From NCBI GenBank assembly GCA_022510615.1, contig JAFLTC010000004.1:62001-126000 (forward strand): 64,000 nt of DNA, written 5' to 3'. Both the position numbers and the translations under genes were made by a program. The first letter of the stretch is position 1, and the number at the start of each line of letters is the position of its first letter. Below the pieces are notes generated by a model. That model was not told the origin of the DNA. It saw only the letters and a list, made by a program, of their open reading frames with translations, and made no database searches. Source of the stretch: Lachnospiraceae bacterium. GTDB taxonomy: Bacteria; Bacillota; Clostridia; Lachnospirales; Lachnospiraceae. Positions 16,867 through 46,711 of the stretch are shown piece after piece.

Positions 16867-16936
16867 AATTTTTATAAAAACAAGAAAGGGCTTTGCCATA
16901 TCTGCTTACATGCAGAGGCAAAGCTCTTCTTTCATT

Positions 16937-17014
16937 TTATAGGAAAGTTTGCACGCGCGGAGCGAAAACGCTATGCGTTTTCGGAGGTGCGCGTTTTTCA
17001 GTCGCACCTTTTTT
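16937..17014 (+). repeat. Dispersed hairpin + terminator repeat (copy 1)
   Basis: TTATAGGAAAGTT...GCGGAGCGAAAACGCTATGCGTTTTCGGAGGTGCGCGTTTTTCAGTCGCACCTTTTTT; similar to 45269-45348. Confidence 0.8.
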
Positions 17015-38445: not shown

Positions 38446-40662
38446 ATGAAACTATGGAGAACCGCAGCCGCAGTAATAGCAATAACCCTGTGTATAACAG
38501 CGGTGCCAGTCGCTGCAGAAAAGAGTCAGGACGAGAAAACAGTAAGTATTTCGGAAGAATGGGAAGGCGCAGATAAAGGTCTTGGTTATATCCCCTATCA
38601 GAACGAAGTATATAACGAAAATGATTTGATCGATATTCAAACTGCGACATCGCCAGGGGAGAAGCGAAGGTCGGCGGTGGTTCTGCCGTCCTCTTACGAC
38701 GCCAGAGACGATGGAGTGGTTCCTTCGGTGAAAGATCAGGGAAACACAGGAAGTTGCTGGGCGTTTGCAGCCCTTGGTTCCGGGGAGTCCGGTCTGATGA
38801 AGAAAGGGATAGAAAAAGGACTTGGTGCAGAAATAGAAGAACCGGATTTGTCAGAGCGTCAGCTCACCTATACCGCACTGAATTATTGGCTGGACCCGTT
38901 AAATCTGACAGAGGGAGATATCAAACAGTTAGGTTCTGGGGTCAATTCCTATAATCAAGGTGGTAACTCGACCATAGCCATCAATTCACTGGCGGCATGG
39001 CGGGGGGCAGTGGATGAGGAGAAAGCGCCCTATGATGTCATTTATAATGCAGATGTAGATGAGAAGGATAAAGACATCCGGATTCCGGACAGTCTGGTTT
39101 ACCAGCAGGATTCGTATCACCTGGAAAATTCGGAGAGTGTTTATCTAGCCACCCCGAACAGGATAAAGGAACTGCTGATGGAAAAGGGTTGCGCTGAGAT
39201 TAGCTACCATGCACCGGATACAAAAGCAGAAGTGTCACGGTATGCCAATGCCGACTACACGGCGTACTACGTGGATGATGAGAATGCGGGGATCAATCAT
39301 GCGGTGTTGCTGGTGGGCTGGGATGATGACTATCCGGTAGAAAATTTTAATCCGAACTGTCGTCCTGAGAAGCCGGGAGCCTGGCTGATTCGGAACAGCT
39401 GGGGAACGGATATCCACGATGAGGGATATCTATGGATTTCCTATGAGGATAAGGTATTGTCACAGGAAGCGAATGAAGTGACATTTTTTGATATGGTGCC
39501 GGCAGATAACTATGATAATAATTATCAGTATGACGGCAGTGCGGCATATGCATATGTGATAGGACCGCAGGGCATGGCCAACATTTTTACGGCACAGTAT
39601 AAAGAAAACCTCGAAGCTGTTTCCATCCAGACTCTCGAACGAAATGTAACCTATGAAATAAAAATCTACCAGGTGTCGGATGCCACAAAACCGGAGAGCG
39701 GGAAACAACTGGGAACAACCATTACCGGTACGGTGGAGGAGCGGGGCTATCACACCATTGACTTTACCGAACAGGGAGGGGAAGATATCGCGCTGGACAA
39801 GGGAAACAAATTTTCCGTTGTGGTGAGGTTGAAAAATGAAGAAGACGACGACAGTTACATTGTGATGGAGTACGCATATCCATCGAGGTTCGGCGTGACA
39901 GAAAAAGTTTCTCTGAAGGAAAAGGAAAGTTTTGTTCTAAATGGAAGCCGATGGCAGGACTGTGCTGACAATCCGAAAGTATTCATGGGAAATTTGCGGA
40001 TAAAAGCTTTTACCACCGTCGATGACAGTGTACCATGCACCGGTATCACTGCCAAAACAGACAGGATAACCGTGCCGCTAAATGAAAAAGCTGATATTTC
40101 CTATACCCTGTCGCCAAATAATGTAACGAATGAGGTCGTGACGTGGGAGTCCGCGGATGAAAGTATTGTCAGGGTGTCAAATGGAGTGGTATACGGCATA
40201 AAAAAAGGAGAAACCACAGTTACCGGCCGCATCAATGGACACGAAATGACGGTGCCAGTAACGGTAGTCGATGCGCCGGTAGTAAAACCGGGGACGCCAA
40301 CATCCGATGCGACAAATACGCCAACGCCCGCTGTAACGAAAAAACCAACTCCATTGCCAACGCCAAAGCCGCCAACTGTCAAAAAAGAGGTGAAAAAGGT
40401 TGTCATCACGAAAAAGGGAAAAAAGAAAGCCCTCAAAAAGAAGGTTACCTTGAAAGAGGGAGAAAAACTGAAACTGGCTGCAAAGGTAACGGTTACAGGT
40501 GGAGCATCCAAGAAAGTAACATGGAAATCCTCCAAGAAAAAGGTTGCCACGGTTTCCGGTAAAGGTGTTGTCAAAGCCAAGAAAAAAGGTAAGGCGAAGA
40601 TTACCGTCACTTCCAAGGTAAATAAGAAAAAGAAATGCACGATTACAATCAGGGTAAAATAA
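38446..40662 (+). CDS. Secreted C1-family (papain-like) cysteine peptidase with C-terminal Big_2 and Lys-rich Ig-like module
   Basis: YDARDDGVVPSVKDQGNTGSCWAFAALGSGESG; INHAVLLVGWDDDY; RNSWGTDIHDEGYLWISYED; TP-rich linker; WKSSKKKVATVSGKGVVKAKKKGKAKITV. Confidence 0.92.
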   Translation: MKLWRTAAAVIAITLCITAVPVAAEKSQDEKTVSISEEWEGADKGLGYIPYQNEVYNENDLIDIQTATSPGEKRRSAVVLPSSYDARDDGVVPSVKDQGNTGSCWAFAALGSGESGLMKKGIEKGLGAEIEEPDLSERQLTYTALNYWLDPLNLTEGDIKQLGSGVNSYNQGGNSTIAINSLAAWRGAVDEEKAPYDVIYNADVDEKDKDIRIPDSLVYQQDSYHLENSESVYLATPNRIKELLMEKGCAEISYHAPDTKAEVSRYANADYTAYYVDDENAGINHAVLLVGWDDDYPVENFNPNCRPEKPGAWLIRNSWGTDIHDEGYLWISYEDKVLSQEANEVTFFDMVPADNYDNNYQYDGSAAYAYVIGPQGMANIFTAQYKENLEAVSIQTLERNVTYEIKIYQVSDATKPESGKQLGTTITGTVEERGYHTIDFTEQGGEDIALDKGNKFSVVVRLKNEEDDDSYIVMEYAYPSRFGVTEKVSLKEKESFVLNGSRWQDCADNPKVFMGNLRIKAFTTVDDSVPCTGITAKTDRITVPLNEKADISYTLSPNNVTNEVVTWESADESIVRVSNGVVYGIKKGETTVTGRINGHEMTVPVTVVDAPVVKPGTPTSDATNTPTPAVTKKPTPLPTPKPPTVKKEVKKVVITKKGKKKALKKKVTLKEGEKLKLAAKVTVTGGASKKVTWKSSKKKVATVSGKGVVKAKKKGKAKITVTSKVNKKKKCTITIRVK

Positions 40663-40680
40663 TGGACGGATTTACAATGA

Positions 40681-40733
40681 AACGGGACGCCCGCATTGGT
40701 GAGAAACTGCCGGTGCGAGCGCCCCTTTTTTAT
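40681..40733 (+). terminator. Hairpin terminator between peptidase gene and cotJC2
   Basis: GGGACGCCCGCATTGGTGAGAAACTGCCGGTGCGAGCGCCCCTTTTTT. Confidence 0.65.
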
Positions 40734-41359
40734 TCGAGAAACTTCTTATCAAACTCCGCATTAAAGTAATAAAAATTCTTAGCATCCAGCTTCGACTTGG
40801 TCATTTCCAGTGCCTCCCCGAACCGCTGAAAGTGGACAATCTCTCTGGCGCGAAGGAATTTCAGTGGTGCCCGTACGTCCGGGTCATCGATAACCCGCAG
40901 AAGATTTTCATAGACCGTTCTCGCTTTCTGCTCCGCCGCAAGATCCTCATATAAGTCGGCGAAGGCGTCTCCCTTAGACTGAAACTCCAGAGCGGTAAAA
41001 GGAACGCCGGCAGCAGCCTGAGGCCAGAGGGCACTTGTATGGTCAATATAGTAGGCATCAAAGCCGGCAGTCTTTGCCTGCTCCGGTGTCAAATCTTTCG
41101 TCAGCTGATAAACCATGGCGCATATAATCTCCATGTGGTTAATCTCTTCTGTTCCGATATCCGTCAAAAGTCCGCCCACCTTTTTTACCGGCATGGAATA
41201 ACGCTGGGCAAGATACCGCATGGAGGCGGACAGCTCGCCGTCAGGACCGCCGTACTGACTGATAATCAACTGTGCCGTTTTCGGACAAGTTTTTTCTATC
41301 TTTACAGGAAACTGTAATCGTTTTTCATAACTCCACATTAGATGAGTCCTCCTTCCCAT
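40730..41359 (-). CDS. cotJC: Spore coat protein CotJC (manganese catalase-like), intact paralog
   Basis: 209 aa, QYGGPDGELSASMRYLAQRY...LTDIGTEEINHMEIICAMVYQL...FTALEFQSKGD...LRAREIVHFQRFGEAL. Confidence 0.95.
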   Translation of the reverse strand: MGRRTHLMWSYEKRLQFPVKIEKTCPKTAQLIISQYGGPDGELSASMRYLAQRYSMPVKKVGGLLTDIGTEEINHMEIICAMVYQLTKDLTPEQAKTAGFDAYYIDHTSALWPQAAAGVPFTALEFQSKGDAFADLYEDLAAEQKARTVYENLLRVIDDPDVRAPLKFLRAREIVHFQRFGEALEMTKSKLDAKNFYYFNAEFDKKFLE

Positions 41360-41808
41360 GGCATAGGGCCTTCCGCCCAGCCATATTCGTTGGTATCCGG
41401 ATTGCCGGTAATCATGGAAATCTGGGTAAGAGGATTATACTTTTTCGCATATTCCGCCAGTAAGTCCAGTCTCTGCTCCAGCAATTCTTTGAATAATGCC
41501 AGTCCTTTCGGACAGGAAGGATGCGTGTCTAAATATAATGTCAAGTCATTGATGGCAAAACTGATAGTTGCAATTTTACTCATCATTTCTTCTCTATCTG
41601 CTTCCTTTTTATCCAGTGCAGAAAATTTAGAGGTGAGGGAACTTTTGACATCCTCAGCTTTAAAAAATTTTAAGTTCAGGCATGGGAAAATAGTACCTTC
41701 TTTCAGAGCAGTTTTAAAATCATAGGGCTCGCACCATTCCTGCATGGGAACAGACGCCATGGCAAGAGTTTCCGGGCAGGTGCAGCCGGTATCCTTCGTA
41801 TCGTTCAT
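41338..41808 (-). CDS. CotJA-CotJB fusion protein
   Basis: N-terminal LAMASVPMQEWCEPYDFKTALKEGTIFPCLNLKFF (CotJA-like) fused to ATISFAINDLTLYLDTHPSCPKGLALFKELLEQ...GPMPWEGG (CotJB-like). Confidence 0.85.
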   Translation of the reverse strand: MNDTKDTGCTCPETLAMASVPMQEWCEPYDFKTALKEGTIFPCLNLKFFKAEDVKSSLTSKFSALDKKEADREEMMSKIATISFAINDLTLYLDTHPSCPKGLALFKELLEQRLDLLAEYAKKYNPLTQISMITGNPDTNEYGWAEGPMPWEGGLI

Positions 41809-41954
41809 CCTATCATCTCCTTTGTATAAATTTTTGTGACAATAATATTTTTTGTCGATTAAGGGATAATATGCGGACAAGATATTTCCATTGTGAATTC
41901 AAAAGTGTTTCAAAAAATTCCAATTGAATTAAAAAAATAAAAATTAAAAAAATT

Positions 41955-42500
41955 GCAACTGTTTCCGCTCCCTGGGAAGAGATATATAATACGGAAGACG
42001 GAAGTACCGGAAAAATGGTTACGAATCCATCTTATGTAAAGCTGGCATTCAAATATGCCTATGATGAGCTGGTAGCCAATAAGAGAACGAATATCTCCTT
42101 AATCTACAATGATTTTAATACCTACGGTGAGGATACCGCAGATCGTATAGTGACGATGTATAAGTGGTTGAATACTAAGGATGATGTGAATACCACCGGT
42201 GCTACGATTTGTAACGGTGTCGGTATGCAGTCCCATCTGAGTGTGAAAAATTCATATCATTCGGTGACTAATTTTACGGCTGCCCTGAATAAGTTCTGTA
42301 ATGTAGGTATGGAGGTTCAGATTACTGAGCTGGATGCCACCAGAGATGGTGCTACAGAGGCTGAGGAGGCAGCGTACTGGAAAGACATCATGAAGGCTTT
42401 AATTACTGCTAAGAAGGCTGGCGGCAACATAACTGGTGTTACCATCTGGGGACTTTATGATGCCACTTCATGGCGAGCATCCGGAGGTTTTTTCGTGTAA
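41955..42500 (+). pseudogene. GH10 endo-1,4-beta-xylanase remnant (internal to near-C-terminal fragment)
   Basis: ATVSAPWEEIYN...KLAFKYAYDELVANKRTNISLIYNDFNTYG...VGMQSHLSV...EVQITELDA...GVTIWGLYDATSWRASGG then FFV*; no N-terminal half and a truncated end. Confidence 0.85.
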
Positions 42501-42519
42501 AACTTTTCAAATAACCGGG
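42483..42519 (+). repeat. 37-nt repeat, near-identical to 111-148
   Basis: GGAGGTTTTTTCGTGTAAAACTTTTCAAATAACCGGG; differs from 111-148 by one T in the T-tract. Confidence 0.92.
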
Positions 42520-42588
42520 GATAGCACTGAACTGGATTTCAGAAAACTGGAAGAAAATAAAAAAATGTCAAATAATGTAAAATAATGA

Positions 42589-42618
42589 TTGACATGTCGA
42601 CGAGCCATTGTGTAAAAT
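42589..42618 (+). promoter_or_regulatory. SigA-type promoter of the Hint/protease operon
   Basis: TTGACA-N18-TAAAAT, RBS GAAAGGAG before ATG 42671. Confidence 0.65.
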
Positions 42619-42670
42619 TAAAAGTAACTTGCTCAGGTTATAGAAAGCAATGGAAAGGAGATGAGTTAAT

Positions 42671-44317
42671 ATGTCAACATATGGGAAAATGGACTATACG
42701 AAAGAGGAACACTTTTTGGCGGCTCTTGAGCATTTTGGAGGAAAAGACTTTCTGCAGGAAAACTTCCCGAATATGCTCCAAATGTTGTACAATACGCGCG
42801 AGTGGCATCAGGAGCTTAACAGGAAGAATGAGGATGAGCCAGTGGGATACGAGGATTCATTCGAAATTATGGAACTGTGCCAGTCTGATACAAAGAATGA
42901 ACGGGGGGAATCTGGGACATCTATTGTGAGCCTGTCAAATATGTCGTTGGTTAATAAAGCATCTTTCCTGCAAATATCCAGTGTTGTAAAGGATCCGGTC
43001 AATGGGGTGATTTTTGCGTCAAGCGCAGTACATGACACGAATAGAAACAATCTGGAAAATCCGCTGACCGTGGATTCTAAGTTGATGTCTTACACTAAAA
43101 GTCCCAAGGTTCTGACCGTGTCGGACTTCATGGCAGCCAGCAAGGTCAACGGTAAAAGCGTATGTGTCGCAAATACAATAAACAGGACACTGGAAATTGA
43201 CTTGGCGAATGGCAAGCCGGATATTACAAATATTGTGGTAAACCAACCGGCTCCCAAAAACGAACAAGCCTTTGTAATAAGGGTTGTTTATAACGGCCGG
43301 ACGGATAACGATGCCAGTTACAATTTTAAGATGGCGACGGACTGGACATCAGGGGGTGTCCGATATGTCAGGGTGTTTTTCCCTTTTTCTATTACGGTGA
43401 ATTTGGATGATGACTTTCAGTTTTGCAACGATACGCCGGTAAGCTTTGGAGATGATTTTATGGTCAGTCTGGCGAGTGAGGTTGTACAGGGAGGGAGCGT
43501 CCATTTTAACACCGCTACCCCCTATATAGATAAAATAAAATCGACGATAGACGGAAACACATTAACGTTGGACTTCTCCTATCAGGCGGATACAGATTTT
43601 AATTACTGGGGTATAGAGATGCCTTTGACGTTAAAACAGGCGGAGGGGGTGTTTGATTTTCATCTGCAATTTACTGTGAATTACGCTTACAAGGACAATC
43701 CTGGTGAAATACTTCACACGCCAATCCTTGTGACTAGTGAGGAGTATCCGGAGTCCCAGAATATGGTGAAGATAAAACAAGCGAGAATCTTGTGGGGATG
43801 TTTGGGAAAAGACACTCAACTGCTTACAGAGGATGGATATCGAAACATTAGTGAGGTTAAGCCCGGTGATAAGCTTTACACGAATAAGGGGTATATCAGA
43901 TTAAAAAATATGGTGACTGGCACAGAAGAAAAAATAGTCGCTGTGGCTGTGTCCGAGGAAAAGACATTGCTTCTCACCAAAAAGCACCCGATTGCTACCG
44001 AGCGGGGAATTATTTATGCGGACGGTCTCACAATTGGGGACAAGCTGAAAATGGAGGACGGTTCTCTCAGGGAAATTTATTATCTGGAAATTAAAGATTA
44101 TCATGACAAGGTATATTGTCCTGAACTGGAGGAAAGCGCTCTGATTGCAGCCGACGGCATTATGGTGGGGGATTATATGACGAAGGTGGATGTAGTCGAG
44201 GAACCGGAGGAAGAATTGGAGCCGTTGGAGCCTGAACTTATGGATGAATTGATTCGGTGGTCCGAATGGAAGGAGCAGAAAATGAAGGAAGAACATAGGA
44301 AGGAGGTAGCAAAATGA
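42671..44317 (+). CDS. Hint-domain (intein/hedgehog-like) protein
   Basis: C-terminal CLGKDTQLLTEDGYRNISEVKPGDKLYTNKG (block A) and TLLLTKKHPIATERG (TxxH block B), ending IAADGIMVGDYMTKV; novel ~370-aa N-terminal region. Confidence 0.8.
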   Translation: MSTYGKMDYTKEEHFLAALEHFGGKDFLQENFPNMLQMLYNTREWHQELNRKNEDEPVGYEDSFEIMELCQSDTKNERGESGTSIVSLSNMSLVNKASFLQISSVVKDPVNGVIFASSAVHDTNRNNLENPLTVDSKLMSYTKSPKVLTVSDFMAASKVNGKSVCVANTINRTLEIDLANGKPDITNIVVNQPAPKNEQAFVIRVVYNGRTDNDASYNFKMATDWTSGGVRYVRVFFPFSITVNLDDDFQFCNDTPVSFGDDFMVSLASEVVQGGSVHFNTATPYIDKIKSTIDGNTLTLDFSYQADTDFNYWGIEMPLTLKQAEGVFDFHLQFTVNYAYKDNPGEILHTPILVTSEEYPESQNMVKIKQARILWGCLGKDTQLLTEDGYRNISEVKPGDKLYTNKGYIRLKNMVTGTEEKIVAVAVSEEKTLLLTKKHPIATERGIIYADGLTIGDKLKMEDGSLREIYYLEIKDYHDKVYCPELEESALIAADGIMVGDYMTKVDVVEEPEEELEPLEPELMDELIRWSEWKEQKMKEEHRKEVAK

Positions 44318-45222
44318 CATACGATGCGCTTAAAGAGTATCTGGAACAGAACTCTGATGAGATTATGAAACAGACGGGGGCGCATATGGTCGGAATCGGA
44401 AAAAATGCAGATGGCGAGGATATTTTGAATATATATGCGGAGAATCCGCCGACGAATCAGGAGTCAAAGGCGATGCAGAAGCTATTTTCAGATTCTGTGA
44501 AAATTCCATTTCAGTATGTGGTAGAGAAACAGTCGGAATCCGATATCCTGTATGTAAATGAAGAGGAGTCGTTGCATAAGGACTACGGGCGATACCGCCC
44601 TTTGATAGGGGGGATTCAGGTCTATTTAAAGAATAAAACGAAGGCATGGTTTGGAACGCTGGGGACTTTTGTGAAGTCAAAAGATTCAAAGGATAATAAA
44701 TTGTACCTTCTTTCCAATAAACATGTGCTGGATTCCGTGAACCTCAATGTGTATCAGCCATTGCCCGGCGACAACAATATAATTGCCAAAGTTTGTCGTG
44801 TGGAAGAATTTAACAATACGGATGCCGCGCTGGCGGAAGTGCTGAACCCTTCCGACGTAGATGCTGATGTTATAGAAGAAATTGGGATAATAACTGAGAT
44901 AAAAAAAATCGAAAAGAGCGATGCCGGTAAGAAGGTGATTAAGCGAGGTCGGACGACGATTCGAACAGTAGGAACTATCGAAAGCACCTCTGCCACAGTT
45001 AGATTGACCGACGGCACCGTGCGTTATGACTGTGTTATTGTGCGAGCCAACAAGGGTGAGTTATTTTCAAATTCGGGCGACTCGGGTTCTCCGGTCGTCA
45101 TGAGTGGAGAAGGAAAGCTTGTGGGCCTGCATTTTGCAGGAAATCAAACACCGGGGGGCACCTCTATTTTCTGTAAAATCGATAACGTTTTTGAAAACTA
45201 CAATATTAAACTGACAGATTGA
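44314..45222 (+). CDS. Trypsin-like serine protease (chymotrypsin fold), cytosolic
   Basis: LLSNKHVL (His), FNNTDAALAEV (Asp), SNSGDSGSPVVMSGEGKLVGLHFAG (Ser); no signal peptide; ATGA overlap with upstream ORF. Confidence 0.85.
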   Translation: MTYDALKEYLEQNSDEIMKQTGAHMVGIGKNADGEDILNIYAENPPTNQESKAMQKLFSDSVKIPFQYVVEKQSESDILYVNEEESLHKDYGRYRPLIGGIQVYLKNKTKAWFGTLGTFVKSKDSKDNKLYLLSNKHVLDSVNLNVYQPLPGDNNIIAKVCRVEEFNNTDAALAEVLNPSDVDADVIEEIGIITEIKKIEKSDAGKKVIKRGRTTIRTVGTIESTSATVRLTDGTVRYDCVIVRANKGELFSNSGDSGSPVVMSGEGKLVGLHFAGNQTPGGTSIFCKIDNVFENYNIKLTD

Positions 45223-45225
45223 TAA

Positions 45226-45267
45226 AAAATCCCCTGGCTATATCACTATAGCCAGGGAATTTTTTAT
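45226..45267 (+). terminator. Rho-independent terminator
   Basis: TCCCCTGGCTATAtcacTATAGCCAGGGAATTTTTT. Confidence 0.9.
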
Positions 45268-45268
45268 C

Positions 45269-45348
45269 TTATAGGAAAGTTCTTCCTTGCGGAGCGAAAA
45301 ACGCTATGCGTATTTCAGAAGGGCGCGTTTCTCAGCCGCCCCTTTTTT
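45269..45348 (+). repeat. Dispersed hairpin + terminator repeat (copy 2)
   Basis: TTATAGGAAAGTTCTTCCTTGCGGAGCGAAAAACGCTATGCGTATTTCAGAAGGGCGCGTTTCTCAGCCGCCCCTTTTTT; similar to 16937-17014. Confidence 0.8.
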
Positions 45349-45472
45349 ATGGTGCTCTGTGACTTCTTACAGAGAGAATCGTGTTGATTTTTGATGTAAA
45401 AATATCTAAACTTTTGCAACATTTTTGACATAAAAATCGTTTTGTATATAGAAAGAAATTTAATAGGAGGGA

Positions 45473-46711
45473 ATGACTATGAAAAAACTGATTACCTTAT
45501 TAACATTGAGTGCCTGCATTCTTTTTCTTGGCGCGACCCGTGCAGATGCCGCAGATGCCGGAAATGTGCAAATCACTGCAACAACGTTTCCGGATGAATT
45601 TTTCCGAAACTATGTGTTAGACAATATCGACACAAACAAGGATGGGATTCTGCAACAGGAAGAGGCAGAAGCAGTGACGAAGATTTCTTTTCGGAAATTC
45701 AATGATGCCGATGAGCAGGATAGCGAAGATGAGGAAGGAACAGTAGAACTGCACTATTACACAAAAGATGAATTTACTTTTGATTTTAAAGGTCTGGAGA
45801 ATTTTACAAATGTAACAGATCTTACGATTCGGTTGTTTGGTGGACTGACAAAAGACAATGCAGACTATCCGGTCCAGGTCAGCAATGTAAGTTCTTTGTA
45901 CCGGCTTAAAAATTTGAAAGCATTGGAAATCAATAAGACGAACATGAAGAACTTTGACTGTTCAAAGTTTCCAAAGCTTGAGAAATTAACCCTCACGGAA
46001 TTTGGTGAACTGACAAAAATGACGTTCAAAGGGAACAAAAAATTAAAGAAATTGAATTTGTCAGATTTTCCAAAGCTTAGTTCATTCGATGTATCTTCGC
46101 TTGGAAAGCTTACCTCTATACAGTTGCGCGCAGTCAATGTCAAAAATATCAAATTCGGAAAAAAGAATAGCAGTATAAAAAGGCTGGATATTGGCAGTTA
46201 TACAAACCAATATTGTAAAAAGTTGACATCCCTTAATTTAAGCAAATTGACCGGGTTGAAAAAACTGCTTGTCTCATGGCAGAAAAATTTAAAGAAGCTG
46301 GATGTATCCCATAACAAAAAACTCAGTGCGATTTACTTGGAAAAATGCAACAAGATTACCACACTGGTCCCAAAGAAAAATCAGAAGCTGACAGAGGTAA
46401 ATGTCTGGGGTTGTAAAAATTTTAAGACTCTGGATCTAAGTGCAAATCATAAACTGAGTTCGCTGAGTCTGGAAGGCATGATAGTAAAGAACATTCGGCT
46501 GAGCAAGAAGAATAAGCTGACCTTTTTCCGTTATGCCAACGCGAAACTCAAAAAATTCAATGTAAAGAATATTAACACGAAGACACTGAAGGACTTGCAG
46601 CTCTATGGAAACAAACTGAAAAAAGTAGATATACGAAAATATAAAAAGTTGCAAAATCTGGAAGTGGATAAGGGCGTGAAGGTGGTCGGAAAATTATCCT
46701 TGCAATCGTAG
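45473..46711 (+). CDS. Secreted leucine-rich-repeat protein with EF-hand-like N-terminal motif
   Basis: Signal peptide; FPDEFFRNYVLDNIDTNKDGILQQEEAEAVTKI; repeats such as LKKLDVSHNKKLSAIYLEKC. Confidence 0.85.
   Translation: MTMKKLITLLTLSACILFLGATRADAADAGNVQITATTFPDEFFRNYVLDNIDTNKDGILQQEEAEAVTKISFRKFNDADEQDSEDEEGTVELHYYTKDEFTFDFKGLENFTNVTDLTIRLFGGLTKDNADYPVQVSNVSSLYRLKNLKALEINKTNMKNFDCSKFPKLEKLTLTEFGELTKMTFKGNKKLKKLNLSDFPKLSSFDVSSLGKLTSIQLRAVNVKNIKFGKKNSSIKRLDIGSYTNQYCKKLTSLNLSKLTGLKKLLVSWQKNLKKLDVSHNKKLSAIYLEKCNKITTLVPKKNQKLTEVNVWGCKNFKTLDLSANHKLSSLSLEGMIVKNIRLSKKNKLTFFRYANAKLKKFNVKNINTKTLKDLQLYGNKLKKVDIRKYKKLQNLEVDKGVKVVGKLSLQS

Follow-up and report, generated by a model that had tools for sequence, protein, structure and literature searches.

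Hint domains have been described in inteins, in hedgehog signalling and in the release of toxins. In a 64,000-nucleotide stretch of a Lachnospiraceae contig (JAFLTC010000004.1), here called the window, a Hint-domain protein (ORF1) is encoded directly ahead of a trypsin-like protease (ORF2), which raises the question of what the Hint domain does in this protein and whether the protease belongs to its function. An earlier note on this DNA had regarded the two genes as a proteolytic or self-processing system, possibly related to conflict or defence. Its ORF coordinates and lengths, as well as the ATGA overlap between the two ORFs, proved exact; the features discussed below are collected in Table 1.

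Table 1. Features of the Hint-protease locus, in window positions.
Feature	Position	Strand	Basis or detail
Segment missing from G309	41892..45477	.	comparison with same-genus genome
GH10 piece	42015-42500		PF00331 positions 148-286 of 311
Sigma-70-like promoter candidate	42589-42618	+	TTGACA-18-TAAAAT, 11/12 match
ORF1, 548-aa Hint-domain protein	42671..44317	+	beta-rich N part, Hint, C-terminal helix
N-terminal helices of ORF1, aa 12-49	42704..42817	+	AF2 model, family alignment
Beta-rich region of ORF1, aa 63-374	42857..43792	+	AF2 model, fold comparison
Hint domain of ORF1, C377 to Q505	43799..44185	+	alignment, profile, structure match
Block B of ORF1 Hint, T436-K-K-H439-P440	43976-43990	+	
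GD replacing HN in ORF1 Hint	44168-44173	+	
C-terminal helix after ORF1 Hint, aa 521-547	44231..44311	+	AF2 model
ORF2, 302-aa Nal1-like serine peptidase	44314..45222	+	Nal1_C match, triad alignment
Intrinsic terminator	45232-45257	+	11-pair stem, then T run

The assignment of a Hint domain to ORF1 is above chance. As a single protein, ORF1 finds its best Pfam match in PT-HINT with an E-value of 2.3e-5, the score of 25.1 bits lying below the gathering cut-off of 27.7, and in the PDB it matches the gp41-1 intein 6riz (phmmer, 3.2e-6). A profile of the family described below reaches the BIL domain 2lwy of C. thermocellum with an E-value of 1.3e-9. In the AF2 model of ORF1 the Hint region shows a pLDDT of about 90, and the Hint part aligns with TM-scores of 0.87 to 6riz and 0.79 to 2lwy. 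The domain starts behind the junction W375-G376|C377, with C377 as Cys1, and in its last block VGD, with a Tyr coming next, takes the place of VHN. The features that define the HINT superfamily, i.e. the Hint fold, a Cys or Ser at position 1 and the block B His, are all present. The earlier description of a Hint module with WG|C and TKKHP, in which GD takes the place of HN, was borne out. Past Q505, 43 aa remain, for which a single helix is predicted. On the other side of the domain, the N-terminal helices carry a weakly conserved motif in the family alignment (DxSxxxHxxY...GGxxxLxxxxP), and the beta-rich region yields generic FnIII/Ig-like fold matches only, with moderate to low model confidence at aa 260-330.

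ORF2 is a short, divergent Nal1-like serine peptidase of the trypsin fold. Both defining features of such peptidases were found: the Nal1_C score of 38.9 bits exceeds the cut-off of 26.1, and the intact triad H137/D170/S257 aligns with that of 12 further Nal1-like proteins of the same phylum, in agreement with the chymotrypsin-fold protease proposed before. With the Nal1-like peptidases, represented by plant NARROW LEAF 1 and bacterial relatives, ORF2 shares the VGIG start and the LSNxHV, NxxDAA and GDSGS motifs; it differs from them in being shorter and divergent, in lacking the long His-Asp segment and in being the only one found next to a Hint gene. As the earlier note had stated, no signal peptide is found in the sequence of either ORF, nor in a hydrophobicity scan of ORF1.

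The pair is followed by the terminator that had been noted. Ahead of it, the site described as a strong promoter is indeed a close match to the consensus, but promoter-like sites in the region are not above chance (9 versus 8.1 in shuffles). The notion of a self-contained two-gene unit beside a degraded GH10 locus likewise stood in part, namely for the tight unit. The degradation of GH10 is unsafe: 77 bp of the window (41972-42048) are an exact copy of the last 77 bp of another contig of the same genome (C55), where the last ORF represents, in frame, the 5' half of a GH10 gene. Such an overlap is typical of an assembly-graph branch point, and the GH10 truncation beside the pair may be an assembly artefact. 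Some 600 bp separate this branch point from the Hint-protease unit to its right, which is on the side continuous with a conserved LRR gene. The syntenic flanks comprise genes for the spore coat (cotJ), for the LRR protein and for housekeeping functions. The genome G309, of the same genus, has just 180 bp between cotJ and the LRR gene, against 3.6 kb in the window; thus, the Hint-protease unit represents extra DNA relative to G309.

A synteny survey for Hint-trypsin pairs, which the earlier note had suggested, did not reveal a conserved pair. In a search of 397 genomes from the bacterial family, P0002 matched its own genome alone, and no Hint gene lies within about 1.5 kb of any of the 12 further Nal1-like loci of the phylum; the Nal1-like peptidases at these loci stand alone. 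A protease-specific circuit therefore rests on one locus, and we rejected, for now, the Hint-trypsin pairing as a conserved system.

The Hint protein, by contrast with this single pairing, has relatives. We sampled the genome sets of the genus, family, order and phylum as well as named genomes and plasmids, and found 23 distinct loci with the plan of ORF1, i.e. N-terminal helices, a beta-rich region, an aromatic-G-C junction, the Hint domain and a short tail. The hosts belong to Bacillota, Gammaproteobacteria and Alphaproteobacteria, including Serratia, Pseudoalteromonas and Tistrella, and to MAGs of Geobacteraceae, Flavobacteriaceae and Methanosarcinales. These MAGs are bins and may include contigs of foreign origin; the archaeal member breaks off at a contig end. 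The plasmid search contributed the Pseudoalteromonas and Tistrella members and also gave a candidate match in Azospirillum. The family is rare: once ordinary Hint proteins are set aside, it occurs in 3 of 39 genomes of the genus sample, 8 of 299 of the family sample, 4 of 392 of the order sample and 4 of 399 of the phylum sample. The sole match in a search of phages was Hint-like and located in a mycobacteriophage portal protein. In the openly accessible journal literature that was searched, no paper describes the family; it is apparently undescribed, such silence being weak evidence of novelty.

Cys1 and the block B His are present in every one of the 23 members and the terminal HN in none, its place being taken by G-D in 22 and by G-E in one (L016). 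HN-type (VHN) Hint proteins of the RHS type from the same bacterial family, e.g. L021, split off cleanly. In two members (L033 and L035) a Ser, not a Gly, precedes Cys1; these two carry export signals, which are lacking in the other members. Block F shows an Asn or Cys at the position of the conserved intein Asp.

At 21 of the 23 loci an adjacent ORF on the same strand lies at a distance of 30 nt or less, often overlapping the Hint gene. The partners are diverse and comprise LamG proteins with variable C-termini (L015, L017, L020, L024, L027, L028, L044), RHS or LamG-RHS proteins (L016, L045), a multi-gene FN3/LysM operon common to L018 and L036, the first protein of which is fused to the Hint protein in L025, and a recurrent protein of ~1,110 aa accompanied by a Gly-rich protein or a fusion (L019, L065, L067; by eye also L046 and L066). 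Further partners are a Serratia cluster, DUF7689, thermolysin and DUF6765, the M4 thermolysin gene of Pseudoalteromonas lying 10 nt upstream of the Hint gene; a Nal1-like or trypsin-like partner occurs in this window only. The partner groups are unrelated to one another. In the genus of the window, the three genomes that have the gene show three different partner types, which, together with the unrelatedness of the groups, argues for a constant Hint protein and an exchanged partner. Partner type in part tracks the tree of the Hint proteins: the LamG loci except L015 and L024 group together (support 0.89) across Bacillota, Geobacteraceae and the archaeal bin, three of the loci with the ~1,110-aa protein form a second clade (support 1.0), and the window protein branches deeply on its own.

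Outside the window, the family's partners resemble large proteins of the LamG, RHS or LysM type. Ahead of the Hint gene, the uncharacterised ~1,110-aa protein ('...HLHFILPDAFTH...'), a ~550-aa protein and the Gly-rich, collagen-like protein or fusion form a cluster (L019 11463-17164, L065 10919-16825, L067 2290-9759). The large protein of L019 has no match in Pfam or the PDB, and the large partner proteins gave no useful match in PDB or PHROG searches. On plasmid pTM1 of Tistrella mobilis (L038 12389-32878), an operon behind the Hint gene encodes very large uncharacterised proteins, the longest of 2,521 aa and one of them weakly matching LysM; homologous operons occur in L018 and L025. The C-termini of the LamG partners show, by eye, a transglutaminase-like C...H...D pattern, a weak lead (best Pfam E-value 0.0093); the structure model was too poor to use (pLDDT 39).

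What, then, would the Hint domain do? Cys1 and the block B Thr and His are kept and block G is lost; a domain of this kind, like type B BIL domains and hedgehog (PMC4031507, PMC7664689), is predicted from known Hint chemistry to form a thioester on its N side, which would be resolved by hydrolysis or by transfer, and not to splice. In ORF1, Cys377 would attack the peptide bond after W375-G376, aided by T436 and H439, to give the thioester, and the N part (aa 1-376) would be freed by hydrolysis or passed to a nucleophile. Since the terminal His-Asn is replaced by Gly-Asp, we propose that the domain neither splices nor efficiently cuts on its C side, so that the C-terminal helix would stay attached to it. 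Retention of Cys1 and His with loss of HN in all members is the pattern that selection would be expected to leave if it favoured chemistry on the N side but no splicing. Splicing is known from some inteins that end in Asp (reference 80 of PMC4031507), so that members of the family may cleave slowly on the C side. Where the earlier note had Hint cleavage expose or release the N-terminal domain, N-side self-cleavage without C-side cleavage is a sensible prediction for ORF1.

Among known systems, type B BIL domains come closest in these respects; according to PMC4031507, they are expected to cleave without splicing. ORF1 shows their sequence hallmarks, with VGD-Y in place of an intein-like block G and a +1 nucleophile, and would by these be classed as type B BIL. 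The family shares with them the Hint fold, Cys1, the block B TxxH and the profile match to 2lwy; it differs in its uniform GD/GE ending, its own conserved beta-rich N part and its coupled, exchangeable partner. A class 1 splicing intein ends in Asn, rarely Gln or Asp, with a penultimate His and a C, S or T at +1, whereas ORF1 has G-D and then Tyr. The Hedgehog Hog domain, for which only the N-S acyl shift is expected (PMC7664689), is likewise a C-terminal Hint domain behind a G-C junction, but the present family is prokaryotic, its N part is unrelated in sequence and there is no sign of a sterol or other acceptor.

Our preferred reading, to which we give about an even chance, is that ORF1 represents a beta-rich protein with a type-B-like BIL domain that would cleave on its N side only and that is encoded with an exchangeable partner. 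The Hint protein would then be the constant processing or carrier half, and the neighbouring gene the exchangeable one. Domain content, residue conservation, tight gene coupling, the variability of the partner and the distribution are observed, whereas we infer that the N side is cleaved, what this yields and whatever link, physical or functional, ORF1 has with the protease; adjacency alone is no proof of partners working together. Against this reading weigh the Asn or Cys in block F, the Ser ahead of Cys1 in L033 and L035 and the single occurrence of the trypsin pairing. A bolder version, in which the family acts as a prokaryotic hedgehog-like conjugation module that holds the N protein as a thioester and hands it to a nucleophile on the partner or the cell surface, a swap of partner thereby altering what becomes joined or processed, seems to us rather improbable.

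The role of the protease can be explained otherwise. In a dedicated two-component circuit, self-cleavage by the Hint domain would expose or free the N domain, and the trypsin-like protease would cut this domain or a target. The overlap of the two genes, their single terminator and the intact triad fit such a circuit, as does the thermolysin of Pseudoalteromonas as a second proteolytic partner in the family; however, the Hint-Nal1 pair was found once, the 12 other Nal1-like loci lack a nearby Hint gene and most partners are not recognisable proteases, and we consider the circuit unlikely. We are also doubtful of mere co-transcription, in which a Nal1-like peptidase was recruited by chance downstream of a self-sufficient Hint protein without joint function. 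The single instance, the insertion of the segment relative to G309 and the solitary Nal1-like peptidases elsewhere speak for it, but tight coupling to a neighbour is family-wide.

Two further explanations concern conflict, and both appear very improbable. If ORF1 were a polymorphic toxin, its Hint domain would free a C-terminal toxin. PT-HINT is the closest Pfam model for ORF1, and two family members neighbour RHS proteins; yet PT-HINT ends in VHN right before the toxin domain, whereas the family ends in VGD and a short tail, with HN absent throughout, and in ORF1 only the helical tail follows. No immunity-like gene lies ahead of the terminator. The toxin reading of ORF1 is largely refuted by the absence of a C-terminal toxin domain. 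Some anti-phage defence systems likewise consist of a small inserted unit in which a cytosolic protease is encoded together with another protein; against such a role, which the earlier note had considered, stand the lack of a PADLOC match, the spore-coat, LRR and housekeeping genes in the flanks and the export signals of two family members.

Overall, the observation of the earlier note was borne out and its interpretation supported in part. The interest of the locus is in the family, with its uniform loss of HN and its coupled, exchangeable partners, and not so much in its protease. Occurring in several bacterial phyla and an archaeal bin, and combining a uniform non-splicing ending with a tightly coupled but exchangeable partner gene, such a family would be a further use of Hint chemistry. 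The question that it poses is whether this chemistry serves cutting or joining; in case of joining, the family would constitute a natural protein-ligation module with interchangeable targets.

The surroundings of the pair gave some minor observations. To its left, one ORF (41341-41880, minus strand) combines the CotJA and CotJB domains and is followed by a CotJC-type Mn-catalase ORF (40733-41359, minus strand); beyond these lies a secreted protease of the papain family (C1) that carries Lectin_like and Big_2 domains (38446-40662, plus strand). A dispersed ~88-bp repeat that contains a hairpin and a T run, and for which no Rfam family scored over its cut-off in this stretch, occurs at 45261-45350 and 16930-17014. 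Further copies are found on contigs C108 (two), C37, C75 and C53 of the same genome, which gives at least seven genome copies with 78-92% identity between them.
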